This document shows, piece after piece, positions 3,939 to 32,864 of a stretch of DNA of 64,000 nt (position 1 is its first letter; each line of letters opens with the position of its first letter). Origin of the DNA: Maribacter sp. (GTDB lineage: Bacteria; Bacteroidota; Bacteroidia; Flavobacteriales; Flavobacteriaceae). The stretch lies in assembly GCA_029287355.1 (NCBI GenBank), contig JARFRH010000247.1, forward strand, positions 1 through 64,000, given 5' to 3'. The notes beneath the pieces were generated by a model that saw only the letters and a list, made by a program, of their open reading frames with translations, did not search any database and was not told the origin of the DNA. A program made the position numbers and the translations under genes.

Positions 3939-3967
3939 CGCAAATTTTTAACCCATAAAATAAGAAT

Positions 3968-4002
3968 TAAAAAATCCCGACTATCAGTTCGGGGTTTTTT
4001 AA
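3968..4002 (+). terminator. Rho-independent-like terminator
   Basis: AAAAAATCCCGA-ctatcagt-TCGGGGTTTTTT hairpin plus T-tract between the OmpA gene and the PKS operon. Confidence 0.7.
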
Positions 4003-4018
4003 TTCCTATCTTTCCTCT

Positions 4019-5140
4019 GTGAAGCAATATGATGTTATAATTGTTGGTGGTGGATTAGCGGGACTCATAGCTGCGCTGCACCTTTCACATAAAAACTATT
4101 CGATTTTAGTTGTTGAAAAAAAGGAATACCCCCATCACAAAGTATGTGGTGAGTATTTATCTAACGAAGTGATTCCTTATCTGAATCGCCTTGGCGTTTC
4201 TTTCGAGGGCATACAGACAAAATCAATAAAAACACTATTGCTAAGTTCTTCGAGTGGCAAGTCTCTGCAGACCGAACTTCCTTTGGGTGGTATGGGTATC
4301 AGTCGTTTTGTATTAGACCATTTACTTTTCGCGCAAGCACTCAAAAGAGGTGTCGATTTCCTGACGGATAATGTCTTGACTATTGAGTATCGAAAAGACG
4401 CCTTTGAAGTGGGGACAGAGCAAGGTGACAAATTCGATGCCCATCTTGTTATCGGAGCATATGGAAAACGGAGTAGCTTGGATAAGAGCTTAAAAAGATC
4501 TTTCATCCACAAGAAATCATCTTGGATGGCCGTCAAGGCTCATTACGAAAACAATGATTTTCCCGATGACATGGTAGCCTTACACAATTTTAATGGGGGA
4601 TATGCAGGGTTGTCCAGAACAGAAACAGGAGCCGTCAATTTTTGCTATTTGACATCCTATAAAAGCTTTCAAAGAGAAAAAAATATTCAAGATTTCAACT
4701 CTAATATTATTGCTGAAAACCCGTTTTTGGGGGAGTTCCTCAAAACATCCAAACCGATTTTTAAGGAGCCTTTGACTATTGCACAGATATCTTTCGAAGG
4801 TAAAAATGCGGTTGATAACCATATTATAATGTGCGGCGATACGGCAGGTTTGATCCATCCGCTTTGCGGAAATGGTATGGCAATGGCCATTCATTCGGCA
4901 AAGATAGCTTCGGAACTAATTTTCGACTATCTGGAAAGTAAAGACCGAAATCGTGCACAATTGGAAAGTAATTATAGAACTCTTTGGGGCGAAGCCTTCA
5001 AAAAACGGTTATGGGCAGGGAGACAGTTTCAGGCGATCTTGTTGAACAAAACATTGTCAGGGGTAGCCATAAATCTCGCAATTCAAACGCCTATGTTGTT
5101 GCATCGGTTAATAAAAAGCACCCACGGTAAAACACTATAA
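4019..5140 (+). CDS. NAD(P)/FAD-dependent oxidoreductase (geranylgeranyl-reductase/UbiH-like flavoprotein)
   Basis: N-terminal VIIVGGGLAGLIAALHLS Rossmann motif; CGDTAGLIHPLCGNGMAMAIHSA FAD motif. GTG start. Confidence 0.85.
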   Translation: MKQYDVIIVGGGLAGLIAALHLSHKNYSILVVEKKEYPHHKVCGEYLSNEVIPYLNRLGVSFEGIQTKSIKTLLLSSSSGKSLQTELPLGGMGISRFVLDHLLFAQALKRGVDFLTDNVLTIEYRKDAFEVGTEQGDKFDAHLVIGAYGKRSSLDKSLKRSFIHKKSSWMAVKAHYENNDFPDDMVALHNFNGGYAGLSRTETGAVNFCYLTSYKSFQREKNIQDFNSNIIAENPFLGEFLKTSKPIFKEPLTIAQISFEGKNAVDNHIIMCGDTAGLIHPLCGNGMAMAIHSAKIASELIFDYLESKDRNRAQLESNYRTLWGEAFKKRLWAGRQFQAILLNKTLSGVAINLAIQTPMLLHRLIKSTHGKTL

Positions 5141-5871
5141 TGCTAAAAGATCTATCCAAAAGAAGTACTGAACCGGAGCTCATGGACGATTTTCGTTATG
5201 GCTTGGATTATCTTCGCTTGGTATTTGCCGATATTAATCGAGTAAATCGAATATTAGGAGGTAATTCGATTACCATCAACGCAGTGGCTAATTTGATAAG
5301 GGATAACCGAAAAGAACAGTATACTATTGTTGATATGGGCTGTGGTGATGGTACCATGTTGAGAGAAGTTGCCCGATTTTGTCATAAAAAAAATATTCAA
5401 GTACGTCTTATTGGGATAGACTTGAACCATGAAGCCCTGCAATTGGCAGAAGAAACCTCGAGCTCATATCCTGAAATAGAATACCGACACGAAGATATTT
5501 TACAACTCGACACAAAGGAATTCCACTGTGATATTTTGATCAATACCCTGTGTATGCATCATTTCACAAATGTGCAGTTGGCAACCTTTCTAAGAAAATT
5601 CGTTGAGTTGGGTAAAATCGGAATCGTTATTAATGACCTGCAAAGGAGTGGCTTGGCCTATTACCTTTTTAAACTCTTTAGCCTTATTTTTATAAAAACA
5701 AAAGTTGCTAAGATCGACGGTTTGATATCCATAAGTAAGGGATTTGTCAAATCCGATTTACTGACATACACAAAGTATTTGCCCTCTGTTACGCATAAGA
5801 TTAAATGGAAATGGGCCTTCCGTTATGTATGGGTCATGCAGCCAAATCGCCTAAGAAAAGAATATGATTGA
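5140..5871 (+). CDS. Class I SAM-dependent methyltransferase
   Basis: IVDMGCGDGTMLREVARF motif I; INTLCMHHF. Start overlaps the upstream stop. Confidence 0.85.
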   Translation: MLKDLSKRSTEPELMDDFRYGLDYLRLVFADINRVNRILGGNSITINAVANLIRDNRKEQYTIVDMGCGDGTMLREVARFCHKKNIQVRLIGIDLNHEALQLAEETSSSYPEIEYRHEDILQLDTKEFHCDILINTLCMHHFTNVQLATFLRKFVELGKIGIVINDLQRSGLAYYLFKLFSLIFIKTKVAKIDGLISISKGFVKSDLLTYTKYLPSVTHKIKWKWAFRYVWVMQPNRLRKEYD

Positions 5872-6919
5872 TACCCGAATCGTAACTGTAGCAAAGGAAC
5901 TGCCTCAGTATTGGCGCAGTACAGAAGAGATCATCCCCTTTATAAATATCTGGCTTGCCGATGAAGAGGAGCGTTTCCGGAGAAAAGTTATTAAGATTTT
6001 TGAAGGTGCCGCCGTAGATAAGCGTTACGGTATTATGAATATCGAAGAGGTTTTTACTGCTACTTCATTTCAAGACAAAAATGCCATTTATGTTCGAGAA
6101 GTCAAGAAATTGGGAAAAGCAGTATTGCGCAAAGCTTTAGACCAAAGTGATTGGGAGGCTGATTCTTTGGACTATATCATCACGGTAAGCTGCACGGGTA
6201 TCATGATTCCCTCGTTAGATGCCTATTTGATAAATGATCTCGGATTACGTCAAGATGTGGTTCGCCTTCCGGTAACTGAAATGGGTTGTGCTGCGGGAAT
6301 TTCAGGACTGATTTATGCACATAATTTTCTGAAATCCAACCCTGGAAAACGGATTGCCTTGGTTGCCGTGGAAAGTCCGACTGCGACTTTTCAGTTAAAC
6401 GACCATTCCATGGCGAATATGGTGAGTGCCGCTATTTTCGGAGACGGAGCCGCTTGTGTCTTGCTCTCATCGGAAGCGGACGCGAAGGGTCCGAAGATCG
6501 TTGGTGAGGAAATGTATCATTTTAAAGAGGCTACACATCTGATGGGTTTTGATTTGACGGACAATGGCCTGAAGATGATTTTGGATCCATCCGTCCCTGA
6601 GACCATTGCAAAATATTTTCCTGATATTGTCCATCCATTTTTAAGTCGTAATGGAACCGCTATCGATGAAATCGATCATCTGATTTTTCACCCTGGAGGG
6701 CGAAAAATCGTTCAAACGATTGAGGCGTTATTTGGTAACTTAGGAAAGAATATCGATGATACGCGTGAAGTATTGCGCGCTTACGGTAATATGAGTAGCG
6801 CTACCGTATTATATGTTTTGGAGCGCTTTATGGAAAAAGACATCAAATCAGGCGAAAAAGGGTTGATGCTAAGCTTTGGACCTGGCTTTTCCGCTCAACG
6901 TGTTCTATTGGAATGGTAA
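5864..6919 (+). CDS. Type III polyketide synthase (chalcone/stilbene-synthase-like)
   Basis: Catalytic Cys in TEMGCAAGISG, His in IFHPGGRKIVQ, Asn in YGNMSSATVLYVLE, and GPGFSAQRVLLEW C-terminus. Confidence 0.93.
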   Translation: MIDTRIVTVAKELPQYWRSTEEIIPFINIWLADEEERFRRKVIKIFEGAAVDKRYGIMNIEEVFTATSFQDKNAIYVREVKKLGKAVLRKALDQSDWEADSLDYIITVSCTGIMIPSLDAYLINDLGLRQDVVRLPVTEMGCAAGISGLIYAHNFLKSNPGKRIALVAVESPTATFQLNDHSMANMVSAAIFGDGAACVLLSSEADAKGPKIVGEEMYHFKEATHLMGFDLTDNGLKMILDPSVPETIAKYFPDIVHPFLSRNGTAIDEIDHLIFHPGGRKIVQTIEALFGNLGKNIDDTREVLRAYGNMSSATVLYVLERFMEKDIKSGEKGLMLSFGPGFSAQRVLLEW

Positions 6920-6977
6920 GAGCCGTCAACGCTTCATCAAAAGTAGATATCTTAAGAAAATTAGTTAAAATAAACCC

Positions 6978-7421
6978 ATGACCCCAAATGAAATAATTAG
7001 CGTATTACCTTATTGCAAACCCTTTCTTTTTGTGGATGAATTGATGCATGTGGATGAAAAGGGTGCAAAAGGTGCCTATGCCTTTGATGGAAAATCAGAC
7101 TTTTATAAAGGTCATTTTAAGGATGCCCCGGTAACCCCAGGAGTGATTTTGACGGAGTGTTGTGCTCAAATTGGGGTCGTAAGTCTAGGGGTATATTTAT
7201 TGGGAAATTCAATTCCGAAGCATTTGCAAATAGCGCTTAGTAGTTCCGAGATGGAATTTTACCTTCCCGTTTTCCCCAATGATCGGGTAGTGGTGACATC
7301 TCAAAAGAAGTATTTTCGATTTCATAAATTAAAATGTACAGTGAAAATGCATAATTCAGAAGGGAAATTGGTATGCAAAGGTGCAATTTCCGGAATGTTC
7401 AAAGTGAAAGCGGATGGGTAG
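6978..7421 (+). CDS. 3-hydroxyacyl-ACP dehydratase, FabZ/FabA-like hotdog protein
   Basis: YKGHFKDAPVTPGVILTECCAQIG matches the FabZ active-site helix (His and Glu retained). Confidence 0.88.
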   Translation: MTPNEIISVLPYCKPFLFVDELMHVDEKGAKGAYAFDGKSDFYKGHFKDAPVTPGVILTECCAQIGVVSLGVYLLGNSIPKHLQIALSSSEMEFYLPVFPNDRVVVTSQKKYFRFHKLKCTVKMHNSEGKLVCKGAISGMFKVKADG

Positions 7422-8688
7422 ACGCGTTGTCATAACAGGTCTGGGCATATGTGCGCCCAATGGAATTGGTCTTAATGATTTCACCCGTGCATTAAAAGAA
7501 GGGAAAAGCGGTATACGGTTCCAGCGACAGCTTCAAGATTTGAATTTTGGTTGTCAAATAGCAGCTGAGCCACTTGTACCTGATAATCTGGTCAACAACT
7601 ATTTTACTCCCTTACAACTTCGCGGTTTAAATGCCAGTGGCATTGTTTATGGTGTCATTGCTGGCACGGATGCATGGAAAGATGCTGGCCTTCCAATAGC
7701 TACAAATGATAGTCCTGATTGGGATAGCGGAATAATTTTTGGAACTGGAATTCTCGGAGTCGATAAATTTCGTGAATCCATTCATTTGGTAGATGATCTA
7801 AATGTGCGCCGATTAGGTAGCACCACGGTTTTGCAAACGATGGCCAGTGGCGTAAGTGCGTATTTAGGGGGTATTTTAGGTTGTGGAAATCAAGTAACAA
7901 CCAATTCATCGGCCTGTACGACTGGTACGGAGGGTGTACTGATGGCATATGAGCGTATTGCCTCTGGTAAAGCGAAGCGAATACTAACCGGTAGTTGTAG
8001 TGATAGTGGTCCGTACGTGTGGGGTGGATTTGACGCCATGCGAATTTTACCGAGACAATACAATGATAACCCCACCAAAGCGAGCAGACCCATGAGTGCT
8101 TCTGCCGCTGGTTTTGTGCCTGGTAGCGGGGCAGGGGCCTTGGTTTTGGAATCACTGGAGAGTGCCTTGGTAAGAGGTGCGAATATTTACGCTGAAGTAT
8201 TAGGTGGAGCCATAAATAGTGGTGGACAGCGAGGTGAGGGGTCTATGACCGCACCAAATAGCGAAGCGGTTCAACGCTGTATTGTTCAAGCTATTGCAAG
8301 TTCAGGTATCAAGAAATCGGATGTCGATATCATCAACGGACATTTAACCGCTACTTCGAAAGACGCTTTGGAAATCGAAAATTGGAGTAAAGCGTTGGAA
8401 CTCTCGGGTACTGATTTTCCATACATCAATTCTTTTAAAGGCTTATTCGGCCACTGTTTAGCTGCTGCTGGCAGTATTGAATGTGTTGGAGCTATTCTAC
8501 AATTCCAAGAAAATCAGATTTTTGGTAATGTGAACTGTGAAGATGTGCATCCTGAAATCGAAAGTCAAATTTCGCCTTCTCGAATACCTAAAAAAACAGA
8601 AAAGTATACCCCTAAAATAATCGCCAAGGCCAGTTTTGGTTTTGGTGACGTGAATGCTTGTGTTATTTTTGGGGCTTTTAACGACTGA
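7414..8688 (+). CDS. Beta-ketoacyl-ACP synthase, FabF-like
   Basis: NSSACTTGTEGVLMAYERI (Cys), IINGHLTATSKDALE (His), INSFKGLFGHCLAAAGSIE (Lys/His). Confidence 0.9.
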   Translation: MGRRVVITGLGICAPNGIGLNDFTRALKEGKSGIRFQRQLQDLNFGCQIAAEPLVPDNLVNNYFTPLQLRGLNASGIVYGVIAGTDAWKDAGLPIATNDSPDWDSGIIFGTGILGVDKFRESIHLVDDLNVRRLGSTTVLQTMASGVSAYLGGILGCGNQVTTNSSACTTGTEGVLMAYERIASGKAKRILTGSCSDSGPYVWGGFDAMRILPRQYNDNPTKASRPMSASAAGFVPGSGAGALVLESLESALVRGANIYAEVLGGAINSGGQRGEGSMTAPNSEAVQRCIVQAIASSGIKKSDVDIINGHLTATSKDALEIENWSKALELSGTDFPYINSFKGLFGHCLAAAGSIECVGAILQFQENQIFGNVNCEDVHPEIESQISPSRIPKKTEKYTPKIIAKASFGFGDVNACVIFGAFND

Positions 8689-8728
8689 TCCTGAAAATGG
8701 ACTCAGAAATCCAAAAAATATATTCAAT

Positions 8729-8980
8729 ATGAATGAGGAACGGTATACAAGACTTAAGAAAATCATCAAGATCTATCTTCCAGAAGATGTTTCCGTAGAT
8801 GATATATCGGCCCAAAGTCATTTCATTAATGAACTGAACATTAATTCGGCCAATTTGGTGGATATTGTGTTGGATGTTGAAGATACCTTCGGTATTATGC
8901 TTGAAAATGATGATATGGATCAGATGCAAACCGTACACGATGCTTTGCTGATTATTGATAAGAAATTAACCGACAAATGA
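8729..8980 (+). CDS. Acyl carrier protein
   Basis: MNEERYTRLKKIIKIYLPEDVSVDDISAQSHFINELNINSANLVDIVLDVEDTFGIML; Ser in ELNINSANLVDIV matches the phosphopantetheine site. Start moved to the internal ATG of ORF 8654-8980. Confidence 0.85.
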   Translation: MNEERYTRLKKIIKIYLPEDVSVDDISAQSHFINELNINSANLVDIVLDVEDTFGIMLENDDMDQMQTVHDALLIIDKKLTDK

Positions 8981-9408
8981 TCCAAAGATTTGTTACCTGG
9001 GCCAAGACAAAACTAAATGTCGATAAACGGCTCATCGTCATTTATTGCATTGTATATTTTGGCTGGGGAATATTGATGAACTGGTTTGGCACCGAAGTTG
9101 AAATCGCTAAATTCACCTATTGGTGGCAGGTGATTACCTGCTACCTTCTGTACATGGTGCCCATTTCACTACTCTTGCGCAACCTTCCCTTTCATACACA
9201 ATATGCATATGGACTTGTCGCCATGAGTTTTTTGGAGTTTGGGGGTTATGCGCTTCAAACTTCCTATGCCTTTCCGGATAACCTAATGGACCAGTTTTTT
9301 GGTGAACGTAATTTTGCTTTGGGTATGGCCTTGTTCTTCGCCCTATATTTTCCTATCGGAAATTGGGGGGTACAGAAAATCTATGAGTTGATTTTTAGAA
9401 AAGTCTAA
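8977..9408 (+). CDS. Hypothetical multi-pass membrane protein of the PKS operon
   Basis: Start overlaps the ACP stop; several hydrophobic helices. Confidence 0.7.
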   Translation: MIQRFVTWAKTKLNVDKRLIVIYCIVYFGWGILMNWFGTEVEIAKFTYWWQVITCYLLYMVPISLLLRNLPFHTQYAYGLVAMSFLEFGGYALQTSYAFPDNLMDQFFGERNFALGMALFFALYFPIGNWGVQKIYELIFRKV

Positions 9409-20360: not shown

Positions 20361-23300
20361 ATGAAAGTATTTATCTTTTCCTTATGCTCCTTACTCGCTA
20401 TGAGTTTAGGGGCCCAGATTGAAAAATCACAATTCCAAAACCTTGAATATCGTATGATCGGCCCCTTTAGAGGAGGCCGAACCGTTGGCGCTGTCGGTAT
20501 TCCTACACAACCCAATGTCTTTTTCTTTGGTCATAATAACGGAGGCGTCTGGAAGACGGATGATTATGGTCGTACTTGGAATCCGATTTTCGATGATGCA
20601 CCTACGGGTTCTGTTGGCGATTTAGCAGTGTCCCCGACCAATCCTGATATTATATATGTAGGTACAGGCGAGGGTTTACATCGACCCGATTTAGCTGTTG
20701 GTGATGGAATGTTCAAGACCGCTGACGGTGGAAAAACCTGGAAACATATTGGTTTAAATGACGTTCAACAGGTCAGCAGAGTCATTGTACACCCTACCAA
20801 TCCGGATATCGTTTTTGTTGCTGGCTTAGGTCATCCTTATGGCGCCAATAAAATGAGGGGTATTTTTCGTTCCGTTGATGGAGGCACCACTTGGCAAAAA
20901 ACCTTATACATCAATCAAAGTACAGGAGCGGTTCAGGTGGAATTCGATCCTAATAATCCGCAAATTTTGTTTGCCGATATGTGGGAACATCTTGAAGGTC
21001 CTTGGGAAAATGCAAAATTCTCTGGTTCGAATAGTGGATTGTACAAATCAATGGATGGAGGAAGCACTTGGCAAAAAATCACCAAAGGATTACCGACTAT
21101 TGAGCAGGGATTGGGCAGAATTGGAGTCGCAATAGCCCCAAGCAATTCGGATACGATGTATGCAACCGTTGATGCCAGAGAAAATGGAGGCATCTATGGA
21201 AGTGACGATGCTGGTGAAAGTTGGTCACTCGTTACTACAGATTACAGATTATGGGGTAGAGGCAGTGATTTCGCTGAAATCAAGGTGCATCCTGATAATG
21301 AAAATAAGTTGTTTGTGGGGAATATTGCTTCCTATACATCCGATGATGGTGGTAAAAACTGGACCTCCCTAAAAGGTGCTCCAGGGGGTGATGACTATCA
21401 CCGTATTTGGATCAATCCCTTACAACCAGATATTATGCTTTTTGCGGCGGATCAAGGTGCCGTGATTACGGTGAACGGTGGTAAGACCTGGAGCTCGTGG
21501 TACAATCAGCCCACGGCACAATTATATCATGTGAGCACTGATAACCAATTTCCCTATTGGGTATATGGTGGGCAACAAGAAAGTGGTGCGATTGCAGTAG
21601 CAAGTCGAAGCAATGGCGGACAGATTTCATTTCGCGAATTCATGGGCGTTGGTGCTGATGAATATGCCTATGTGGCACCAGACCCCAAAGACCCTAATAT
21701 TGTCTACGGGGGTCGGGTCATCAAATATGATAAACGTACTGGGCAATCGCAGGTCGTTGCGCCGGAAGTATTACGCAGCGGTAAGGTCAGATTCATTAGA
21801 ACAATGCCATTATTGTTCCATCCTGCGGATGACACTATGCTTTTGTTTGGAACAAATATCGTTTTCAAAACTTTGGATGGAGGACATCGTTGGGAAGAAA
21901 TCAGTCCTGATTTAACGCGTAAACAACCAGAAGTTCCTGCTAGTTTTGCTGATTTTGTCAAAAAGGAAATAGAGCATATGCCACAACGGGCGATCGTTTA
22001 TGCCTTGGGGCCTTCTCCTTTGGACAAAAATATCATTTGGGCAGGCACGGATGACGGCCTGGTACATGTGACCACTGATGGTGGTAGCAAGTGGACAAAT
22101 GTCACTCCTTCCGAACTAAGCCCCTGGGATAAGATTTCTCAAATCGATGCAGGTCATTTTGATAAGGGAACCGCTTACATCGCCGTCAATGCCATTCGAA
22201 AAGACGATATGCGACCCTTGGTTTATAAAACGCACGATTTCGGAAAAACATGGGAAAAGATTTCCAACGGAATGAATCCTATGGGGCCAGTAAATACAGT
22301 TCGTGAAGACCATACCTCGGCGGGCTTGCTTTTTGCAGGTACGGAACGTGAGGTTTATTTTTCGGTTGACGATGGTGCTAGTTGGCAGTCATTACGAATG
22401 AACATGCCCGCTTCCTCTATACGTGATTTGGTGATTCATGAGAACGATTTGGTCATCGGTACCCATGGGCGTTCCATATGGATTTTGGATGATTTTAGTT
22501 TCTTAAGGGAATTGACGGAACTCCCTAAAGATGCGCCCCATTTGTTTCAACCTAGTGTAGCGACTCGTGTGCGGTTTAACATGTTCGCCGATACTCCTTT
22601 GCCACCTGAAGAACCTACTGGAGACAATCCGCCTGATGGTGCCCTGATCGACTACTATCTACCTCATGATTCCAAAGAAGTGTTACTGGAGATTTTGGAT
22701 GGAAACAATCAATTGATCGATAAATTCAGTAGTGCAGCTATTTTGCAACTTCCAGATACCACTAAACTGCCGCACCCCACGTATTGGATACGACCTATGT
22801 CAAAACCTTCAGCAAAGAAAGGTCATCAACGGTTTGTCTGGAACCTTAGATATACTGACCCACCGGGTGCTAATCGCAGTTATGCTATTGCTGCGGTTTT
22901 AAGAAATACGCCAGTCGGACCGGTGGGGCCATTAGTAGCACCTGGCATTTATACCATAAGGTTGACGGTAGATGGTATTACCGATGAAAAACAGATTACG
23001 GTTCGCTTAGACCCTCGATCGCAACTTTCGGATATAGATTTAAAGTTACAAACAGAACTTTCCATGGGGGTCTATAAGGCCTATTTGGAATTGCATAGCA
23101 TTCGTGACGAGGGTCTAGCAAAGTTGGAGAGCAAAATGCTTACGGGTAAAAAGAGATCTGCTTTTTTGAAATTCATCGGTGACGGTAATCCAAATAATGG
23201 AGACCCTTTGTACGGCAGCATACGCGAAACTGATCTTGAAGATGAAACGCTTGTTGGCCTTCAAGAGAAATTGCTCTATCTTTTGGTGGTCTTGCAAAAT

Positions 23301-23399
23301 GCGGATGTCAAACCGACCGAACCGACACAGAAAGCGGTCAAAAGTCTTATCAAACGAAAGGAAGAAATGCTTTCGAAATGGCAATCTATCTCGAAATAA
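20361..23399 (+). CDS. Sortilin/VPS10-like Asp-box (BNR) beta-propeller exported protein, paralogue 1
   Basis: Repeated Asp-boxes (TDDYGRTW, TADGGKTW, SVDGGTTW, SMDGGSTW); RMIGPFRGGRTV N-terminus; signal peptide. Confidence 0.9.
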   Translation: MKVFIFSLCSLLAMSLGAQIEKSQFQNLEYRMIGPFRGGRTVGAVGIPTQPNVFFFGHNNGGVWKTDDYGRTWNPIFDDAPTGSVGDLAVSPTNPDIIYVGTGEGLHRPDLAVGDGMFKTADGGKTWKHIGLNDVQQVSRVIVHPTNPDIVFVAGLGHPYGANKMRGIFRSVDGGTTWQKTLYINQSTGAVQVEFDPNNPQILFADMWEHLEGPWENAKFSGSNSGLYKSMDGGSTWQKITKGLPTIEQGLGRIGVAIAPSNSDTMYATVDARENGGIYGSDDAGESWSLVTTDYRLWGRGSDFAEIKVHPDNENKLFVGNIASYTSDDGGKNWTSLKGAPGGDDYHRIWINPLQPDIMLFAADQGAVITVNGGKTWSSWYNQPTAQLYHVSTDNQFPYWVYGGQQESGAIAVASRSNGGQISFREFMGVGADEYAYVAPDPKDPNIVYGGRVIKYDKRTGQSQVVAPEVLRSGKVRFIRTMPLLFHPADDTMLLFGTNIVFKTLDGGHRWEEISPDLTRKQPEVPASFADFVKKEIEHMPQRAIVYALGPSPLDKNIIWAGTDDGLVHVTTDGGSKWTNVTPSELSPWDKISQIDAGHFDKGTAYIAVNAIRKDDMRPLVYKTHDFGKTWEKISNGMNPMGPVNTVREDHTSAGLLFAGTEREVYFSVDDGASWQSLRMNMPASSIRDLVIHENDLVIGTHGRSIWILDDFSFLRELTELPKDAPHLFQPSVATRVRFNMFADTPLPPEEPTGDNPPDGALIDYYLPHDSKEVLLEILDGNNQLIDKFSSAAILQLPDTTKLPHPTYWIRPMSKPSAKKGHQRFVWNLRYTDPPGANRSYAIAAVLRNTPVGPVGPLVAPGIYTIRLTVDGITDEKQITVRLDPRSQLSDIDLKLQTELSMGVYKAYLELHSIRDEGLAKLESKMLTGKKRSAFLKFIGDGNPNNGDPLYGSIRETDLEDETLVGLQEKLLYLLVVLQNADVKPTEPTQKAVKSLIKRKEEMLSKWQSISK

Positions 23400-23418
23400 C
23401 CCAGTTCATGAACACTAA

Positions 23419-26400
23419 ATGAAATATGATATGAAAACGACACTTTACACTTTCATTGTAGCCCTCTTGCTGACCTCGGGGTTATTTGCACAGCGCAAGA
23501 ATAAAAGTACGGCTCCACTGATTTCCGAAAGACTATATGAATCAATGAAATATCGGAATATAGGGCCGTTTCGTGGTGGGCGCTCTACTACCGTAACAGG
23601 TATTCCGGATGATATTTTCACATTCTACATGGGTGCAACCGGAGGCGGAGTTTGGAAGACCACCGATGGTGGAAACACTTGGAATAATATATCCGATGGC
23701 TTTTTCAATACTACGGGTATTGGTGATATTACCCCTGCGCCCTCCAATCCGGATATTATTTATGTCGGTACGGGCGAATCGCCTGTTCGTGGGGTAAAGA
23801 CTTCCCACGGAGATGGGCTATACAAATCTACGGATGCGGGCAAGACATGGAAACATATGGGGCTACAGAAAACAAGGCATATCAGCGATGTTTATGTACA
23901 TCCGAACAATCCTGACAAAGTGTATGTTGCTGCTCAAGGTAATCCTTGGGGACCCAATGAAGAAAGAGGCATCTATCTTTCCGAAGATGGTGGTGTTACT
24001 TGGGATAAAATCCTTTATGTCAATGAGAATTCAGGCATTGTCGATATGACTGTTGACCCAAACAATCCTGATTTTATGATGGTGGCTTCTTGGGAGTTTT
24101 GGCGCAAACCTTGGATAGTTCACAGTGGTGGTCCCGGTAGTCATATCTATAAGACGACCGATGGTGGCAAAAACTGGAAGACAATTACGAAAGGCTTACC
24201 CGAATTAAAAGGTAAAATGGGGGTTGATATTTCACCAGCGAATCCTAATATTGTTTATATCGCCATTGATGCTTTAGGGGAGAAGGCAGGTGTTTATCGC
24301 TCAGATGATGCCGGTGAGAGCTTTAAACAAATGACCAATGATGCGACAACATATGCACGTTCCTGGTATTATATGCATATCATCGCAGACCCCAATGACG
24401 AAGATGAACTATGGGTAATGAACAGTTTTGCAATGAAATCGATCGATGGTGGAAAAACTTTTAAAGGGATAAAAGGTAGCCATGTGGATCATCATGATTT
24501 ATGGATCAATCCAAAGAATAGTGACATCATGGTCAATGCCAATGATGGTGGTGGTTCTGTGACCTTTAATGGTGGTGAAACTTGGTCATCGATGTTCAAT
24601 CAGCCAACGGGACAGTTTTACCGCTTGCTGACCGATAATGGAAATCCATATCGTATCTATTCAGGTCAACAAGATAATAGTACTATCGCTATTGACAGTC
24701 GGGTAGTCGATGACGGTATCGGTGAAATGCATTGGGATGTCATGCGTGCAGGGGAGTCTTCAACGGTAGCAGTAGACCCCAACAATCCACGTTATGTCTA
24801 TTCCACCTATTTCGCGAGCAATTTTGTGGAATGGGATCGCGATATCGATAACACAAGAATGGTGATGCCCTATCCTACCAGGGTTACCGGCGAGCAACCC
24901 AAGAATTTAAAATACAGAGCCAATTGGAACGGTCCCGTTATCGTTTCACCTCATAATCCGAATGTAATTTATTATGGTTCTCAATATGTCATGAAATCCT
25001 CGGATAGGGGTGTGACATGGGAGGTATTGAGTGAAGACCTTACTCGAAATGACAAAGACCATCAAGGAAAGGGCGGTGAACCCGTGAGCAATGAGCAAAT
25101 TACCGCAGAGAGCTACAATAATCTTTTTAATATCGAAGAGTCCCCATTGAAAGAAGGGGTGATTTGGGTCGGCTCTGATGACGGGCTAGTACATGTCACT
25201 CAAGATGCGGGTAAAACATGGACCAATGTGACGCCAAAGGGACTCAAAGAGAGTATCATTAATGTTGTCGAACCTTCCCCACATGATCCTGCGACGGCTT
25301 ATATAGCGGTTACTGGTTATAAACTAAATGATTTTACACCTTATATTTTCAAAACCAATGATTATGGTTCAAGCTGGACGAAAATCGTGAACGGCCTACC
25401 CGCCGATACTTTTGCCCGTAGTGTTCGCGAGGACCCGGATCGCAAAGGATTGTTATACGCTGGTACTGAAACTGGTGTTTTTGTTTCCTTTGATGATGGA
25501 AATTTGTGGCTATCCTTGCAGAACAATTTGCCGGAAGTACCCATAACCGATTTAAGGGTAAAGCGAAAAGACTTGGTCGTCGGCACCCAAGGAAGAGCAC
25601 TATGGATTTTGGATGACTTGACGCCATTACATCAGATTTCCGAGGATATCGCAAAAGCGGATTATTACCTTTATAAACCCAATGATCCCAGTGCCGAACT
25701 CTCGGTTGCCTATAGTATTGATGGGGGACAAGGGGAGAATCCTCCGCAAGGAGCACAAATTCACTATGTTTTGAATAAAGCGGTTGCTGAAGATACCCCA
25801 TTATCTCTTGAAATAATGGATAGTTTGGGAGAGGTCATTCATTCAGAGTTCACCAATTTACCAAGAGTAGGGTGTGATACTTTGATAAAGCCTCAATTGA
25901 AACGAAAAGTAGGGGCACATCGGTATCGATGGAATATGAAAGTGGGGACATTTGATTGTTTGACCGAATTGTATACGACCAATCGAGATTTGACGGCTTA
26001 CAATGCAGCTCCCGGTAAATATAAGGTTCGATTGAATGTAGGTGCGTTTTCCCAGACGCAAGACTTCGAAATTAAAATCGATCCACGTATTGCGAACAGC
26101 ATTGAAAATGTAACTGCAGCTTATAAGGAGCGTGATCTGATTTCAAAATCCATTTATGAGGGCGCCACTGAAATGGCCAAAGGAGTACGAGATTTACGTA
26201 AAATCAAGCAGCAATTAGATTTTATACTTTCGGTAACAACAGATGAAAAAATCAAGAAGGAGGGTAAAGCTTTGAACCAGACCTTAGATGATTGGATAGC
26301 TGAAATCTTACAAAAAGAAATGCGCACCTATCAAAGCAATTATATGTTTGAAGCACGCTTATTAATAAAATTCAAAGCCTTCTTGAACCGCACTGGAAAG

Positions 26401-26562
26401 GGAAATTTACCCGTTACCCAAGGCACACGTGATGTTACCAAAGACTATTTACAGCAATGGAGCGCCTTGAAATCAAGTTTGCAAGGCATAAAGACCAACG
26501 ATGTTTCAAAGTACAATCAACTCTTAAAAGATGCTGGTTTGCCTGAGCTGTATTGGCCGTGA
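23419..26562 (+). CDS. Sortilin/VPS10-like Asp-box beta-propeller exported protein, paralogue 2
   Basis: RNIGPFRGGRSTTVTGI; TTDGGNTW, STDAGKTW, SEDGGVTW repeats; WILDDLTPL near the end of the propeller. Confidence 0.9.
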   Translation: MKYDMKTTLYTFIVALLLTSGLFAQRKNKSTAPLISERLYESMKYRNIGPFRGGRSTTVTGIPDDIFTFYMGATGGGVWKTTDGGNTWNNISDGFFNTTGIGDITPAPSNPDIIYVGTGESPVRGVKTSHGDGLYKSTDAGKTWKHMGLQKTRHISDVYVHPNNPDKVYVAAQGNPWGPNEERGIYLSEDGGVTWDKILYVNENSGIVDMTVDPNNPDFMMVASWEFWRKPWIVHSGGPGSHIYKTTDGGKNWKTITKGLPELKGKMGVDISPANPNIVYIAIDALGEKAGVYRSDDAGESFKQMTNDATTYARSWYYMHIIADPNDEDELWVMNSFAMKSIDGGKTFKGIKGSHVDHHDLWINPKNSDIMVNANDGGGSVTFNGGETWSSMFNQPTGQFYRLLTDNGNPYRIYSGQQDNSTIAIDSRVVDDGIGEMHWDVMRAGESSTVAVDPNNPRYVYSTYFASNFVEWDRDIDNTRMVMPYPTRVTGEQPKNLKYRANWNGPVIVSPHNPNVIYYGSQYVMKSSDRGVTWEVLSEDLTRNDKDHQGKGGEPVSNEQITAESYNNLFNIEESPLKEGVIWVGSDDGLVHVTQDAGKTWTNVTPKGLKESIINVVEPSPHDPATAYIAVTGYKLNDFTPYIFKTNDYGSSWTKIVNGLPADTFARSVREDPDRKGLLYAGTETGVFVSFDDGNLWLSLQNNLPEVPITDLRVKRKDLVVGTQGRALWILDDLTPLHQISEDIAKADYYLYKPNDPSAELSVAYSIDGGQGENPPQGAQIHYVLNKAVAEDTPLSLEIMDSLGEVIHSEFTNLPRVGCDTLIKPQLKRKVGAHRYRWNMKVGTFDCLTELYTTNRDLTAYNAAPGKYKVRLNVGAFSQTQDFEIKIDPRIANSIENVTAAYKERDLISKSIYEGATEMAKGVRDLRKIKQQLDFILSVTTDEKIKKEGKALNQTLDDWIAEILQKEMRTYQSNYMFEARLLIKFKAFLNRTGKGNLPVTQGTRDVTKDYLQQWSALKSSLQGIKTNDVSKYNQLLKDAGLPELYWP

Positions 26563-26606
26563 TATCGTTTGTTATACGTCATTTAACCAAAGTAAAAAAC
26601 ACGACT

Positions 26607-27884
26607 ATGAATCAGCGTAGGAATTTTTTAAAAAGAGGTTCAATTGCTGCACTTGCAGCTCCTTTGATTTCTTTCGATTCCAATAAAAAATGGTCACTGG
26701 AAGTCCTTCGCGTACCCTTTGCTAATACGGAGGATTATTGGAGAATGATTCGCAAACAATTTCCATTGAAGGAAGGGCAGACCTATTTTAATAATGGTAC
26801 GATGGGCCCAAGCTCAGGCTATGTTTTGGATACGATGATAAATCATATGCTTCATTTTAACAAGGAAGCAGCTACCATAGATTACAAAGATGGTTCTGGG
26901 CCTGAATTGTTAAGTGGTTATTTCCCCTATAAAGAACTCCGTTCGAAATTGGCTGATATCATCAATTGTGATTACAAAGAACTGTCACTGGTACAAAATG
27001 CCACCTTCGGGATGAATTACGTTGGTATGGGGCTTGATCTGAAAGCTGGCGATGAATTGTTGAATACCGATCAAGAACATGGGGGTGGTTTTGGGGCTTG
27101 GCAATTGCTCGCCAAACGAAAAGGCTGTGTTTACAAGCAGGCCAAGATGCCAATTCCTGCGAATGACCCGCAAGAGATTTTCGATGCCATATTCAAAGCG
27201 GTAACACGAAAAACCAAGGTAATTGCCATTCCACATATTGTTTCGGTATACGGTACCATCATGCCGGTAAAAGCAATCTGTGCAGAGGCTAGAAAACGTG
27301 GAATTTTCACTGTCCTTGATGGTGCCCAATGTGTCGGCCAAATCAAAGTGGATGTTAAAGATATTGGTTGCGATGCCTATTATTCAAGTTTGCATAAATG
27401 GATGTTGGCCCCTGCTGGCAATGGCATCTTGTATATCAATAACGAGGTCGTTTCCAGTATATGGTCTACCGTTGCCAGTTACAATTGGGATAATCAAGAA
27501 GATCATGGATTTCGATTAATGCAAAACGGAACAGGTAACCCTGCACTCCTGGCTGGTTTTGATGCAGCTGTTGATTTTTTCAATACGGTAGGCGAGGATC
27601 GATGGGTCAATAGAATCAAGGAATTAGGAGCTCATTTGCGCAAAGGCCTAAAGGAAATGCCACATGTAACGATTCATTCCTCCACGAATGAAGCAATGGC
27701 TGCTGGTTTGACGACCTACGCCGTAGCTGGAATAAACGGACCCGATTTGCAGAAAACCCTATGGGAACGAGAACGTCTGCAACCGCGTTCGGTGGGAACA
27801 GAACTCTTGCGACACTCTGTACATATTTACAATTCAAAAGAAGAAATTGACAAAGCACTTCAGGTCATCCGTTCCTTGGCCTAA
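26607..27884 (+). CDS. Class V aminotransferase (isopenicillin-N-epimerase-like), exported (Tat-like leader)
   Basis: MNQRRNFLKRGSIAALAAPL leader; TVLDGAQCVGQIKVDVKDIGCDAYYSSLHKWMLAPAGNGILY PLP-Lys region; C-term LLRHSVHIYNSKEEIDKAL. Confidence 0.9.
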   Translation: MNQRRNFLKRGSIAALAAPLISFDSNKKWSLEVLRVPFANTEDYWRMIRKQFPLKEGQTYFNNGTMGPSSGYVLDTMINHMLHFNKEAATIDYKDGSGPELLSGYFPYKELRSKLADIINCDYKELSLVQNATFGMNYVGMGLDLKAGDELLNTDQEHGGGFGAWQLLAKRKGCVYKQAKMPIPANDPQEIFDAIFKAVTRKTKVIAIPHIVSVYGTIMPVKAICAEARKRGIFTVLDGAQCVGQIKVDVKDIGCDAYYSSLHKWMLAPAGNGILYINNEVVSSIWSTVASYNWDNQEDHGFRLMQNGTGNPALLAGFDAAVDFFNTVGEDRWVNRIKELGAHLRKGLKEMPHVTIHSSTNEAMAAGLTTYAVAGINGPDLQKTLWERERLQPRSVGTELLRHSVHIYNSKEEIDKALQVIRSLA

Positions 27885-27975
27885 ATACGAAGCTCATGAA
27901 TGCCGAATTACCCCGATTGCCCAAATTCGAACCAATGTGTTCTTTTTAGTTTTAATTGATAACAAAACAAAAACA

Positions 27976-29679
27976 ATGAAAAATTTTTATTCAAAAATTA
28001 TATACTGCTTACTATTTCTTGGCTGTAACCTCTATGCACAAGATCGTCTTACGGGTGAGACATTTACTACCCGTTCCGAAATTTTGGCTAGAAATGGTAT
28101 GGCCGCAACAAGTCAACCTTTGGCCACACAAGTTGCTTTGGAGATATTGAAAAAAGGGGGCACTGCAATGGATGCTGCGATTGCGGCAAATGCCATGCTG
28201 GGTCTTGTAGAACCGGGCAGTTGTGGCATTGGTGGTGATATTTTCGCCATTGTTTGGAACGCCAAAGACCAAAAACTCTACGGTTTCAATGGCAGTGGGC
28301 GCGCTCCGAAATCTTTGTCCATAGATTATTTTATGGATAAAGGAATGAAGTATGTTCCTTTACATGGCCCATTGCCCGTCTCGGTGCCTGGCTGCGTTGA
28401 TGGCTGGTTCGAATTGCACAAAAAATTCGGAAAACTAAAAATGGAGGAAATTTTGCAACCCGCTATATCCTATGCTCGCGATGGTTTTCCTGTTTCAGAG
28501 GTCATTGCCTATGAAATGGCCTCAAGCAATGCGAGGTTAAAAGACCAACCAGGTTTTGCGGAAACTTATATGCCCAATGGGCGATTTCCCCTTAAGGGAG
28601 AAGTCTTCAAAAACCCAGATTTGGCCAATACCTATGAAGCGATTACCAAAACTGGGCGTGATGCTTTTTATAAGGGCAGTATTGCCAAAACCATGGCGGC
28701 CTACATGGCAAAGCATGGTGGTTTCTTGTCATATGATGATCTAGCCAACCACACCTCGAATTGGGTGGAGCCCGTTTCGGTCAATTACCGAGGCTATGAT
28801 GTTTGGGAATTACCGCCAAATGGCCAAGGTACGGCAGCCCTGCAAATGTTGAATATATTGAAAGGATTCGATATCGCGACTATGGGATTCGGGAGTCCCG
28901 AATACCTCCATGTACTTGCCGAAGCCAAAAAATTGGCCTATGAAGATCGTGCGAAGTTCTATGCAGACCCGGCGTTTAATAATATTCCGCTAGAAACCTT
29001 GTTGTCCGATGCGTATACTGCGAAAAGGAAAGGTCTTATCAAGCTTGATGAAGCTGCAGACAGCTATCCTGCTGGTGATATGGAAATAGAAGCGGGCAAT
29101 ACCACGTATTTGACTGTTGCAGACAAGGAGGGAAATATGGTTTCTTTGATACAAAGTATTTATTCGGTATTCGCTTCAGGTATGGTACCCGATGGATTGG
29201 GTTTCGTTCTCCAAAACCGTGGACAAATGTTCAATATTCAAGACAAAAATCATGCAAACGCACTGGAGCCGAGTAAGCGACCGTTCCATACGATTATTCC
29301 GGCCTTTATTACAAAAGATGGAAAGCCGTGGGTGAGTTTCGGACTAATGGGTGGAGCTGTACAACCCCAAGGACACGCTCAGATTGTAGTCAATTTAGTC
29401 GACTTTGGCATGAATCTTCAAGAGGCAGGCGACGCACCTAGAATGCGTCATACTGGTAGCTCGCAACCCACAGGTTATAAAATGGCCAATGGCGGCATTT
29501 TGCATTTGGAAAGCGGCTTTGATGCAAAAACCCTGCGCGAATTACGAAAAAAAGGACACCGTATCGGTTATGGAGTAGGTATGTATGGCGGTTACCAAGC
29601 GATTGGAGTCAATTTAGAAAACAAAGTATATTCAGGTGCTTCTGAATCGCGTAAAGATGGACAAGCGGCCGGGTATTGA
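27976..29679 (+). CDS. ggt: Gamma-glutamyltransferase
   Basis: GMAATSQPLATQVALEILKKGGTAMDAAIAA; nucleophile region EAGNTTYLTVADKEGNMVSLIQSIYSVFASG; signal peptide. Confidence 0.93.
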   Translation: MKNFYSKIIYCLLFLGCNLYAQDRLTGETFTTRSEILARNGMAATSQPLATQVALEILKKGGTAMDAAIAANAMLGLVEPGSCGIGGDIFAIVWNAKDQKLYGFNGSGRAPKSLSIDYFMDKGMKYVPLHGPLPVSVPGCVDGWFELHKKFGKLKMEEILQPAISYARDGFPVSEVIAYEMASSNARLKDQPGFAETYMPNGRFPLKGEVFKNPDLANTYEAITKTGRDAFYKGSIAKTMAAYMAKHGGFLSYDDLANHTSNWVEPVSVNYRGYDVWELPPNGQGTAALQMLNILKGFDIATMGFGSPEYLHVLAEAKKLAYEDRAKFYADPAFNNIPLETLLSDAYTAKRKGLIKLDEAADSYPAGDMEIEAGNTTYLTVADKEGNMVSLIQSIYSVFASGMVPDGLGFVLQNRGQMFNIQDKNHANALEPSKRPFHTIIPAFITKDGKPWVSFGLMGGAVQPQGHAQIVVNLVDFGMNLQEAGDAPRMRHTGSSQPTGYKMANGGILHLESGFDAKTLRELRKKGHRIGYGVGMYGGYQAIGVNLENKVYSGASESRKDGQAAGY

Positions 29680-29758
29680 TTTAATTATGTATCAATTGAA
29701 TGGTATCCTATACGATACTGAATTATTAATTTATAGATTTTAACCAAGCTATTTTATT

Positions 29759-32700
29759 ATGAAGCTTCGATCCTATTACAAACTTCTCGTGTTCACTTTT
29801 TTAACAACTTCTACAACTTTGATTTCGCAAGATTTCGAGGCCTTGCAATATAGACAGGTTGGGCCTGAGCGAGGTGGGCGGGTTACCACGGTAACCGGAA
29901 CGGCAATGTTGCCGGGTACTTTCTATTTAGGAGCTTCGGGTGGCGGGGTTTGGAAATCGGAAGATTACGGCACTTCTTGGAACAATGTTTCCGATGGATT
30001 TTTTGCTACGCCATCGATAGGTGCTATTGAAGTGGCGACAAATGACCCTAATATCGTTTATGTCGGAACCGGTTCCGATGGATTGCGAAGCAATGTCATT
30101 GGCGGGAAAGGCGTCTATAAATCTATCGATGCAGGCAAAACATGGGAACATATTGGCCTCAAAAATGTTGGGCAAATTGGAGCAGTTGAAATCGACCCGA
30201 CAAATAGCAACATCGTTTGGGTGGCAGCAATCGGTAACGCATTCAAATCAAATGCGGAGCGTGGGATATATAAAACTATGGACGGGGGGCAAAACTGGCA
30301 AAAAGTTTTGTTCGTTTCCGATACTGTTGGCTTTTCTGATTTGGAACTCCTTCCGGGGAATCCGAATGTTATTTATGCCGCTGCTTGGAAAGCCGAGCGA
30401 AAACCATGGACTATCATTTCAGGGGGTACTTCGGAAGAAGGCGGAATTTATAAATCCGTGAACGGTGGAAAAGACTGGGTGAAGCTCGACAAGGGACTAC
30501 CTCAAGGAACCATTGGTAAAATCGATTTGGCTGTATCTGCCGTCAATTCGAGTATGGTATATGCCGTAATCGAAGCACCTGGGAAACAAGGAGGGATATA
30601 TAAATCCGTTGACCAAGGCAAATCATTTCAACAAATGTCTGATAACAAAGGTCTGGTCAATCGCCCCTTTTATTATACCAATATCGAATTGGACCCTACG
30701 AATCCTGATATTGTGTATTCCAATGCGAACCCGCTTTTGAAATCTATCGATGGTGGAAAAAGTTGGAAGCGGATGCGTGTACCCCATGGTGATAATCATG
30801 ATATTTGGATCAATCCAGATAATCCTGAATTGTTGATCCAGGCGAATGACGGTGGTGCAAACGTTAGTTTCAATGGTGGAAAGACCTGGTCTACACAATT
30901 CAACCAACCGACAGCAGAGTTATATCAAGTGGAAGTTGATGATCAATATCCGTATTGGCTGTATGCCGGTCAACAGGATAATTATTCAACCATTGCCGTA
31001 CCTAGTTTTCCACCTTACGCACTTCAAAATCCCGGTCGGGGCTATATTATCAATACCGGGGGATGTGAAACCGGCCCTGCGGTCCCAAAACCTGGTGATC
31101 ACAATACCGTCTATGCCAATTGTAAAGGTCGTTTTGGGGTATTTAACAAACTAACTGGGGTTGAAAAGAGCTATTATGTGGGTGCCTCCAATATGTACGG
31201 ACATAATCCGAAAGACTTGAAGTATCGCTTTCAACGGGTAGCACCTATTCATGTGTCACCGCACAACCCTGATGTGGTTTATCATGGCTCACAGTATTTA
31301 CATAAAACACGTAATGACGGACAAATTTGGGAAACCATTTCCCCTGACTTGACCGCTTTTGAAGCGGATAAACAGGTCATTTCAGGAAGTCCGATTACTC
31401 GTGATATCACAGGTGAGGAGTATTACAGTACTTTATATTCCATTCGAGAATCGAAGCTGAAAGAAGGTCTTATTTGGACAGGGTCTAACGATGGCGTTAT
31501 TTCCGTTACACAGGATGGTGGTGCAAGTTGGAAGAATGTTACCCCTAAGAAGCTACCGAAAGGGGGAAGGGTAGAATCGGTAGAACCCTCCCATCACGAA
31601 TTGGGTACTGCCTATATTGCAGTAGACCGGCATTTGTTGGGTGATGACAGGCCGTATGTGTATAAGACCGATGATTTCGGACAAAATTGGGAATTATTAA
31701 GCATAGCATCCAATGGAATTCCTTCAGATTATATCACTAGAGTACTGCGAGAAGACCCTGTTCGCAAAGGATTGCTGTACGTAGGCACTGAATTTGGCAT
31801 GTTCATTTCTTTCGATGATGGAAAAACATGGAAAACCTTTCAACAGAATCTTCCCGTTACGCCTATAACCGATTTGAAAATATTCCGTGGTGATTTGGTG
31901 ATGAGTACCATGGGTAGAGGGTTCTGGATTTTAGATAATATTACTTCGCTAAGACAAAAGGAAATAACCGATATTAAAAATTCGCCCCATGTATTCAAAC
32001 CGGATGTCACGGTTCGGTATCGTTACCCTATGGTACGCGATGGGGATGCATTTCCGAAATTCCCAAGGACAGCGGTTTTACTTGATTATTTTTTACCGGA
32101 ACCAGCCCAAGATGGTTTGAAATTGGAGGTTTTAAATTCCAAAAACGAATCGGTAGTGACGATTTTAAGTGATAGTACACAATTGAAATCGACTGTCGAG
32201 GAGGTCGAGGACATGAACTTGAGCCAAACCTTCCGTTTTGTAAATGAAAAATTAGAGAATACCAAGGGACTGCAACGTTTCGCTTGGGATTTACGCCAAA
32301 AAGGGGCTTGGGATGCAGATGCTAAAAAGCGTTTTAAAAACGGCCCAATGGTGCCTCCAGGAACCTACACGGCCAAACTGACCGTTGGTAAAGAATCCTT
32401 CGAGCAAACCTTCGAGATTGTATTGGATCCCAGGGTGAAGGCGGAAGGACTATCCGAAGCTGAGATTGAAAAACAATTGGCCATGCAAAACCAGGTCATG
32501 CATTTGCTCTCGAAAGCTCGAAAACTTCAGACCGAATTGGAAAAAGAGTCCAAATCATTAAAAGATGAAGTGAAACAGGCTTCCCAATTGGAACATACGA
32601 ATTCCCTTTTAAAACAATTAAAAAACGATGAGGGGGCTTACCCGAAGCAAATGTTGGTAGCCCAAATAGCCTATTTGTACAATATGGTCAAGGGTGCGGA

Positions 32701-32785: not shown

Positions 32786-32864
32786 ACGCTATTCTAACCG
32801 AACATTTGGGTAGTACACCCTAGATTTTTTTATCAATATAACGTCTAAGAAACCAAAATAAATT

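Follow-up and report, generated by a model that had tools for sequence, protein, structure and literature searches.

A type III polyketide synthase operon coupled to a putatively dedicated type II fatty-acid module in Maribacter and related Flavobacteriaceae

Type III polyketide synthases (T3PKSs) make up 9% of the predicted clusters in the Flavobacteriaceae, ranking among the commonest, with no product given in the portion of that survey drawn on here (PMC7440613). In the 64,000-nucleotide stretch of Maribacter sp. DNA analyzed here (the window), a T3PKS gene lies in a row with genes for a dehydratase, a beta-ketoacyl-ACP synthase (KAS) and an acyl carrier protein (ACP), raising the question of whether this fatty-acid set supplies the T3PKS with its starter. 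Our analysis suggests, with a probability of roughly 0.6, that the T3PKS of a phenolic-lipid pathway is supplied by a private fatty-acid module of type II, and the module probably builds the tail of a phenolic membrane lipid in many marine flavobacteria. No earlier description of such a combined T3PKS and type II fatty-acid operon was found in the papers searched.

Organization of the operon

The ORF listing and the sequence bear out the seven co-directional genes with overlapping or near-overlapping ends that an initial annotation had described at 4019-9408, and Pfam and NCBIfam searches confirmed its gene family assignments. All genes lie on the forward strand, in the order FAD-dependent oxidoreductase of the geranylgeranyl-reductase/UbiH-like superfamily (4019..5140, GTG start), class I SAM-dependent, PRK06202-like methyltransferase (5140..5871), T3PKS (5864..6919), FabZ-like 3-hydroxyacyl-ACP dehydratase (6978..7421), FabF/FabB-like KAS (7414..8688), ACP (8729..8980) and membrane protein (8977..9408). 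Overlaps amount to 1 base between oxidoreductase and methyltransferase, 8 between methyltransferase and T3PKS, 8 between dehydratase and KAS, and 4 between ACP and membrane protein, while 58 bases separate the T3PKS from the dehydratase and 40 the KAS from the ACP. According to the ORF listing and Pfam, all module enzymes are discrete single-domain proteins. Neither a ketoreductase (in the ORFs, Pfam matches and relatives' loci) nor an acyl-loading enzyme was found among the operon genes.

The upstream boundary of the operon is set by an intrinsic-terminator-like hairpin on the forward strand (3964..4005, 17 pairs with a T-rich tail) that closes the upstream ompA-like gene. A hairpin followed by a T-run occupies the matching place in many relatives, and the weight of the Maribacter hairpin is limited by the fact that terminator-like sites are no commoner in the region than in shuffled sequence. 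The -7 promoter element of the Bacteroidota has the consensus TAnnTTTG. The forward-strand string TATCTTTC (4007..4014), which ends 5 bases before the GTG start at 4019 and resembles strings preceding the start codon in many relatives, is a possible -7-like element, and translation from 4019 may be leaderless.

Enzymes encoded in the operon

The T3PKS matches both Pfam domains of its family above the cut-offs (PF00195, 81.5 bits; PF02797, 71.6 bits), and its catalytic triad C142/H276/N309 is invariant among 91 sequences. Its AF2 model (pLDDT 95) aligns with PKS11 at a TM-score of 0.93, the nearest folds being PKS11, CylI in second place, PKS18 and THNS. By domains, triad and thiolase fold the protein is a type III PKS, for which malonyl condensation and cyclization are predicted. 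The pocket is unusual, with P172 replacing an otherwise invariant Cys and F229 an otherwise invariant Trp, so that it does not reveal the ring type.

Of the two tailoring enzymes, the oxidoreductase matches TIGR02032 at 127 bits, under the family cut-off, and has only remote kin in the PDB; it is predicted to act as a ring hydroxylase or reductase. The methyltransferase falls within Methyltransf_25 in Pfam and scores 123 bits against NF004851, also under the cut-off. In the fatty-acid module, the catalytic residues H46/E60 of the dehydratase (91 sequences), C168/H310/H347 of the KAS (90 sequences) and the attachment serine S40 of the ACP, in the motif INSA (90 sequences), are all invariant. 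In NCBIfam, every module protein scores under its curated cut-off, which places the assignments at the family rather than the orthologue level. The same genome encodes a separate housekeeping FabF, a FabI-like gene and a FabZ domain within a long LpxC-FabZ-like frame, as well as a separate flexirubin-type cluster, with a flexirubin-type SDR above cut-off on another contig (C14); the fatty-acid set of the operon is therefore an additional one.

Coupling of the fatty-acid module to one T3PKS clade

The initial annotation had named missing gene-order conservation in relatives as grounds for discarding its proposal. That order is kept: the succession oxidoreductase, methyltransferase, T3PKS, FabZ-like dehydratase, KAS and ACP is repeated in virtually all of 63 related loci, one of them from Pedobacter, extends down to T3PKSs of about 67% identity, and was seen in further genomes beyond these loci. 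Given this recurrence, we regard the arrangement as far beyond chance. In many genera the operon also keeps its position, with pdh and ompA genes upstream of it, and the methyltransferase adjoins the T3PKS in all loci of the operon type. These six genes form the conserved core of what had been described as a seven-gene operon, the membrane protein being a lineage-specific accessory present in 33/90 loci.

Within the T3PKS clade of the operon, the dehydratase is present in 90/90 loci and the KAS and ACP in 89/90, the exception (L051) being a locus only 10.4 kb long; dehydratase, KAS and ACP occur in 0/75 of the other type III PKS loci of the Bacteroidota. Among 201 genomes of the family, 83 encode the T3PKS and 82 the operon-type KAS, with both in 82, the KAS alone in 0 and the T3PKS alone in one (G527), where a contig end cuts the operon. 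Two genomes keep both halves apart: in G557 and G532 the dehydratase, KAS and ACP have moved together, away from the oxidoreductase, methyltransferase, T3PKS and enoyl reductase; in G557, a single-contig genome, the distance is 355 kb. Metalloprotease-like and nitroreductase-like genes beside the displaced modules, their sequences read by eye only, were set aside as unrelated neighbors. One operon from a complete genome (L215) lacks the dehydratase. Taken at the sequence level, these distributions demonstrate evolutionary coupling of the FabF/FabZ/ACP module to a single T3PKS clade, in line with the earlier view of a dedicated set belonging to the operon.

Loss of the enoyl reductase

In most relatives an additional, eighth gene lies between T3PKS and dehydratase and encodes a FabL-like enoyl reductase of about 260 aa, at the site taken in the window by the gap at 6920..6977 (forward strand). 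FabL is the top match of these proteins in both NCBIfam and the PDB, and all of them (53/53) contain Y-x6-K; their FabL score of 156 bits, against an equivalog cut-off of 328, marks them as kin and not as proven orthologues. A search of the window, gap included, found no remnant of the reductase, and no orthologue was found elsewhere in the genome, where a best match of only 27% identity led us to reject relocation. The reductase is likewise missing from several other genera and from four further genomes of the same genus, and one locus (L041) retains a 16-residue C-terminal remnant of it, making an assembly error an unlikely cause. Locus comparison shows loss of the gene in this operon and, repeatedly, in other lineages. 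The seven-gene form is present here as a reduced local version, the fuller form including the enoyl reductase and often a PPTase, which follows the ACP in 20 loci and carries a WxxKE motif in 19 of those. Considering the repeated loss of the reductase and the missing dehydratase of L215, the exact chemistry of the module may vary.

Relationship to known systems

A T3PKS stands beside a methyltransferase in the phenolic-lipid operons srsABC of Streptomyces and bpsAB of Bacillus, and srs also includes a flavoprotein, as here. The methyltransferase of srsABC and bpsAB is ICMT-like, unlike the class I SAM enzyme (Methyltransf_25/PRK06202-like) of this operon, and T3PKSs with an ICMT-like neighbor are nearest in the tree, yet only 26-35% identical. 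The earlier comparison with srsABC was not upheld, the tailoring genes being closest to those of hidABC-like and Planctomycetota-like trios of methyltransferase, oxidoreductase and T3PKS. Discrete KAS, dehydratase and ACP proteins are shared with the aryl polyene and flexirubin clusters of the Bacteroidota, which use their own ketosynthases and a ketoreductase and are not known to include a T3PKS; the present operon, with a T3PKS and without a ketoreductase, belongs neither with these nor with type II PKS clusters. Two further candidates were put aside: the koreenceine cluster, a type II PKS of Pseudomonas, and DpgA as the closest T3PKS family, which scores 171 bits in NCBIfam, but BpsA-like and trio T3PKSs score 163-173 bits, making the match uninformative.

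Like the operon described here, the cyanobacterial hierridin operon hidABC and the Planctomycetota trio (PMC8086630, PMC10896814) unite a methyltransferase, a FAD oxidoreductase and a T3PKS, in a different gene order, and their expected chemistry of a long-chain alkylresorcinol with later methylation and oxidation is the one proposed here; the Planctomycetota T3PKSs make pentadecyl- and heptadecylresorcinols (PMC10896814). Unlike here, no dehydratase, KAS, enoyl reductase or PPTase is mentioned for the operon in the parts of these descriptions consulted. The present operon could still be an ordinary alkylresorcinol trio of hierridin or Planctomycetota type with extra genes, a reading favored by the shared gene content and by an oxidoreductase 41.5% identical to those of plain trios in other Bacteroidia. 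We consider it improbable, since the extra genes belong to a fixed core and are not optional, and the T3PKS has other pocket residues and forms a clade separate in the tree from 26 T3PKSs found in trios of the phylum (HidC not among them). Its identity to the trio enzymes of its own class (median 29.5%) is no higher than to those of distant groups within the phylum (30.6%). The tailoring pair resembles that of Bacteroidia trios and the T3PKS does not, as if the T3PKS had been exchanged when the module joined the pair.

Supply of a T3PKS with ACP-bound chains has precedents. In the ars operon of Azotobacter vinelandii, the ArsA fatty-acid synthase passes acyl-ACP directly to the T3PKSs ArsB and ArsC (PMC6274091). 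Dedicated fatty-acid genes are likewise found here (FabZ-like, FabF-like and ACP, with the FabL-like reductase in relatives), as separate type II proteins and a lone ACP, alongside oxidoreductase and methyltransferase genes, instead of a type I megasynthase. In cylindrocyclophane biosynthesis, the T3PKS CylI reportedly takes substrates attached to an ACP and receives its acyl chain in this form (PMC8086630), as proposed here; that chain is first activated on a free-standing ACP and then built by type I PKS modules, and not by a discrete FabF/FabZ/FabL set. Transfer from ACP to T3PKS is reported for ArsB/ArsC and Gcs (PMC6274091). Acyl-CoA is the usual T3PKS substrate, a point that counts against an ACP-fed pathway, as does the lack of a ketoreductase and an acyl-loading enzyme in the operon.

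Proposed pathway and alternatives

We propose that the growing acyl chain sits on the ACP of the operon and would be extended by its KAS, reduced by the primary-FAS ketoreductase FabG encoded elsewhere, dehydrated by the FabZ-like enzyme and, in most relatives, saturated by the FabL-like reductase. With this gene lost in the present genome, either the primary FabI would take over or the tail would keep double bonds. The ACP would then pass the chain to the T3PKS, which would add malonyl units and close a resorcinol or pyrone ring, to be methylated and oxidized by the methyltransferase and flavoprotein. The evolutionary tie between module and T3PKS clade makes the earlier suggestion, a starter made on the ACP of the operon itself, the best reading; the acyl-ACP hand-over, like chain length, ring type and final product, we infer.

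At somewhat under even odds, we tentatively place the locus in a distinct class of operons, hybrids of type II FAS and type III PKS, that has been kept by vertical descent. In this class, the tailoring pair of an ancestral trio would have been combined with an exchanged T3PKS and a private ACP-based chain builder, and repeated enoyl-reductase loss would make the tail of one phenolic lipid saturated in some close species and unsaturated in others. In the sampled family, the T3PKSs represent one clade with one old operon bearing its own type II fatty-acid module. If the proposed pathway is right, it would point to an unrecognized phenolic lipid in common marine bacteria and offer a clean system for how a T3PKS picks a starter bound to an ACP, since enoyl-reductase-plus and -minus versions occur naturally within one genus.

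Alternatively, the primary FAS might provide the T3PKS with ordinary acyl-CoA or acyl-ACP, with KAS, dehydratase and ACP making a second product part, for example a second chain on the ring, so that co-conservation would reflect a common product and not starter supply. The split in G557 and G532, where T3PKS and enoyl reductase remained together, indicates that the two blocks are separable, characterized T3PKSs mostly use CoA thioesters (PMC6274091), and the ACP-T3PKS contact here is putative. We nevertheless judge this unlikely: no ester synthase, acyltransferase or cyclase for joining a second chain was found in the operon, and association of the module with one T3PKS clade unlike the trio enzymes fits a changed starter source. 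Synthesis of a special unsaturated or branched fatty acid for the general membrane, with the T3PKS genes merely co-transcribed, would agree with the fatty-acid character of FabZ, FabF, ACP and FabL and with the conserved place behind pdh and ompA, and is very improbable considering that the KAS occurs without the T3PKS in 0/201 genomes, that both persist when unlinked and that the module is never found on plain T3PKS trios.

The initial annotation had suggested that the membrane protein could tie the product to the envelope. We see no ground for this role: it is lineage-specific, and its confident model of four long helices (pLDDT 87.5) has no fold match in the PDB, nor its sequence a family match in Pfam or NCBIfam. 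An MMPL exporter encoded after the PPTase in five relatives is a better, if weak, pointer to the envelope.

Operon organization and conservation

The ORF listing and sequence place seven genes on the forward strand of the window (4019-9408); neighbouring genes overlap at four junctions (by 1, 8, 8 and 4 bases) and are spaced by 58 and 40 bases at the other two. These coordinates bear out the seven co-directional genes proposed in the initial annotation, and Pfam and NCBIfam assignments agree with six of its families: a flavoprotein (FAD), a class I methyltransferase (MT), a type III PKS (T3PKS), a FabA/FabZ-like dehydratase, a FabF-like KAS and an ACP. The membrane protein, 143 residues long, had no family match in either database. 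Upstream, a terminator-like hairpin lies between an ompA-like gene and the operon, which ends 8 bases short of a convergent terC gene. Immediately after the hairpin, a few bases 5' of the first start codon, lies a TAtCTTT(C)-like element (4007-4021), also found at the equivalent place in many relatives. The position of this element behind the hairpin suggests that the operon transcript may be leaderless.

A protein search of GTDB genomes yielded 63 loci, nearly all from Flavobacteriaceae (Zobellia, Maribacter, Arenibacter, Ulvibacterium, Salegentibacter and others), together with Pedobacter deserti. The initial annotation named a lack of conserved gene order in relatives as a refutation of its reading; the FAD-MT-T3PKS-dehydratase-KAS-ACP order is in fact retained in essentially all of those loci of sufficient length, and the operon usually lies 3' of a shared set of pdh, lipoprotein and ompA genes. 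In two relatives (L222 and L112), an insertion of ~2.4 kb separates dehydratase from KAS; that of L222 contains opposite-strand ORFs.

A type II module coupled to one T3PKS clade

Of 393 genomes covered by a phylum search, 192 have a T3PKS above cut-off; 60 regions from this search and 15 new ones from relatives were fetched and annotated using profiles derived from the initial set. Within the T3PKS clade of the window, the dehydratase is present in 90/90 loci and KAS and ACP in 89/90, the sole exception being a locus of 10.4 kb (L051). Dehydratase, KAS and ACP occur in none of 75 other T3PKS loci, an absence that is firm only for the ~45 longer ones, some 30 being short; where a module-type neighbour is present there, it is MT or MT with FAD. 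Among 201 family genomes drawn, 83 have T3PKS, and 82 of these also have operon-type KAS, which is never found alone; the one T3PKS genome without KAS (G527) has its dehydratase at a contig end. In two genomes, G557 (a single contig; L210/L211, 355 kb apart) and G532 (L212/L213), FAD-MT-T3PKS and a predicted enoyl reductase gene lie apart from dehydratase-KAS-ACP, and both sets are retained. One complete-genome operon (L215, 4893-6930) lacks the dehydratase and has T3PKS, enoyl reductase, KAS, ACP, PPTase and membrane protein.

Alignments of all sampled members and to solved enzymes revealed fully or almost fully conserved catalytic residues (at least 98%) in T3PKS (C142/H276/N309), dehydratase (H46/E60), KAS (C168/H310/H347) and ACP (S40). 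A PPTase gene lies 3' of ACP in 20 loci, with the W-x-x-K-E motif in 19 of them, and is directly followed in five (L219, L220, L223, L063 and L113) by an MMPL-type exporter gene, whose protein possibly exports the operon product. Since FabF-like, FabZ (in a long frame of LpxC-FabZ length) and flexirubin-type SDR genes are encoded separately in the source genome, the operon constitutes an extra, dedicated set. Two contigs of this genome, C14 (L232) and C266 (L233), carry a flexirubin-type cluster with a FlxB-like SDR (412 bits, above cut-off) and further KAS and dehydratase genes, all distinct from the operon described here.

Loss of a probable enoyl reductase gene

Most relatives carry, between T3PKS and dehydratase, a gene for a ~260 aa protein that is absent from the window. 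Its top NCBIfam match is FabL (156 bits, runner-up 119), below the FabL equivalog cut-off of 328, and its top PDB match is 3oic, an enoyl-ACP reductase that we take to be B. subtilis FabL. The catalytic region has Y-x6-K in 53/53 copies first examined and Y-x3-K in none, and Y165 and K172 are near-invariant among 69 sequences. We read this protein as a probable enoyl reductase. Four other genomes from the same genus lack the gene as well, as do Arenibacter and further lineages, the Pedobacter locus among them. Its presence changes 10 times on the FAD+T3PKS+KAS tree, with at least 9 changes forced by well-supported branches, a count that is blind to gain versus loss. In one relative (L041, about 9092-9150), a 16-residue C-terminal remnant, WINGTVINVDRGESLQ, persists at the expected position between T3PKS and dehydratase; this fragment demonstrates that the gene has been lost at least there and is a visible stage of its decay. 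In another relative (L224), a transglutaminase-like gene (7630-8316) occupies the enoyl reductase position, immediately after T3PKS. No orthologue of the enoyl reductase was found in the source genome, where a FabI-like gene on contig C300, with Y-x6-K read from its sequence, could stand in for the lost gene. Alternatively, the tail of the product may retain double bonds in this genome.

Probable mosaic origin

Plain MT-FAD-T3PKS trios without the module occur in other Bacteroidota. Median identity of the operon proteins of the window to those of the Bacteroidia trios is 41.5% (FAD), 31.1% (MT) and 29.5% (T3PKS), versus 47.7%, 39.6% and 68.9% to distant members of their own operon type. T3PKS is therefore the most conserved of the three within the operon type, yet no closer to the class than to distant groups. 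The operon FADs form a clade among those of the class trios, and the operon T3PKSs a separate, long-stemmed clade. The latter groups most closely with T3PKSs that have an ICMT-like neighbour, a sister group that is tentative because the tree program warns of long-branch joining. The simplest reading would be that T3PKS was exchanged, or drastically changed once, about when the module joined. Clade-specific T3PKS residues include P172 and F229 (Cys and Trp, respectively, in 45/45 others), which map to sites that determine the shape of the starter cavity of other T3PKSs, as well as E139, close to the active-site Cys, and K44, in an N-terminal helix.

Proposed pathway and precedents

The operon KAS and dehydratase, together with primary FabG and an enoyl reductase (either operon-borne or FabI), would build a chain on the private ACP. 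T3PKS would then accept the chain from ACP, add malonyl units and cyclise it, and MT and the flavoprotein would finish the ring; we can only infer ring type, chain length and order of tailoring. ACP-fed T3PKSs are already known, with transfer precedents in ArsB/ArsC, Gcs and SCO7671 (PMC6274091) and in CylI (PMC8086630); the structures nearest to that predicted for the operon T3PKS are PKS11, CylI and PKS18. MT-oxidoreductase-T3PKS operons are likewise known (PMC10896814, PMC8086630), and Flavobacteriaceae T3PKS clusters are counted in PMC7440613, whose available text gives no product. We came across no account, in the open-access papers searched, of a discrete type II module within a T3PKS operon.

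Other genes in the window

Elsewhere in the window, three large Sortilin-Vps10-like proteins are encoded close together, followed by an S15 peptidase (20361-34745), and a TPR protein carries a C-terminal adenylate/guanylate cyclase domain (40657-42486).
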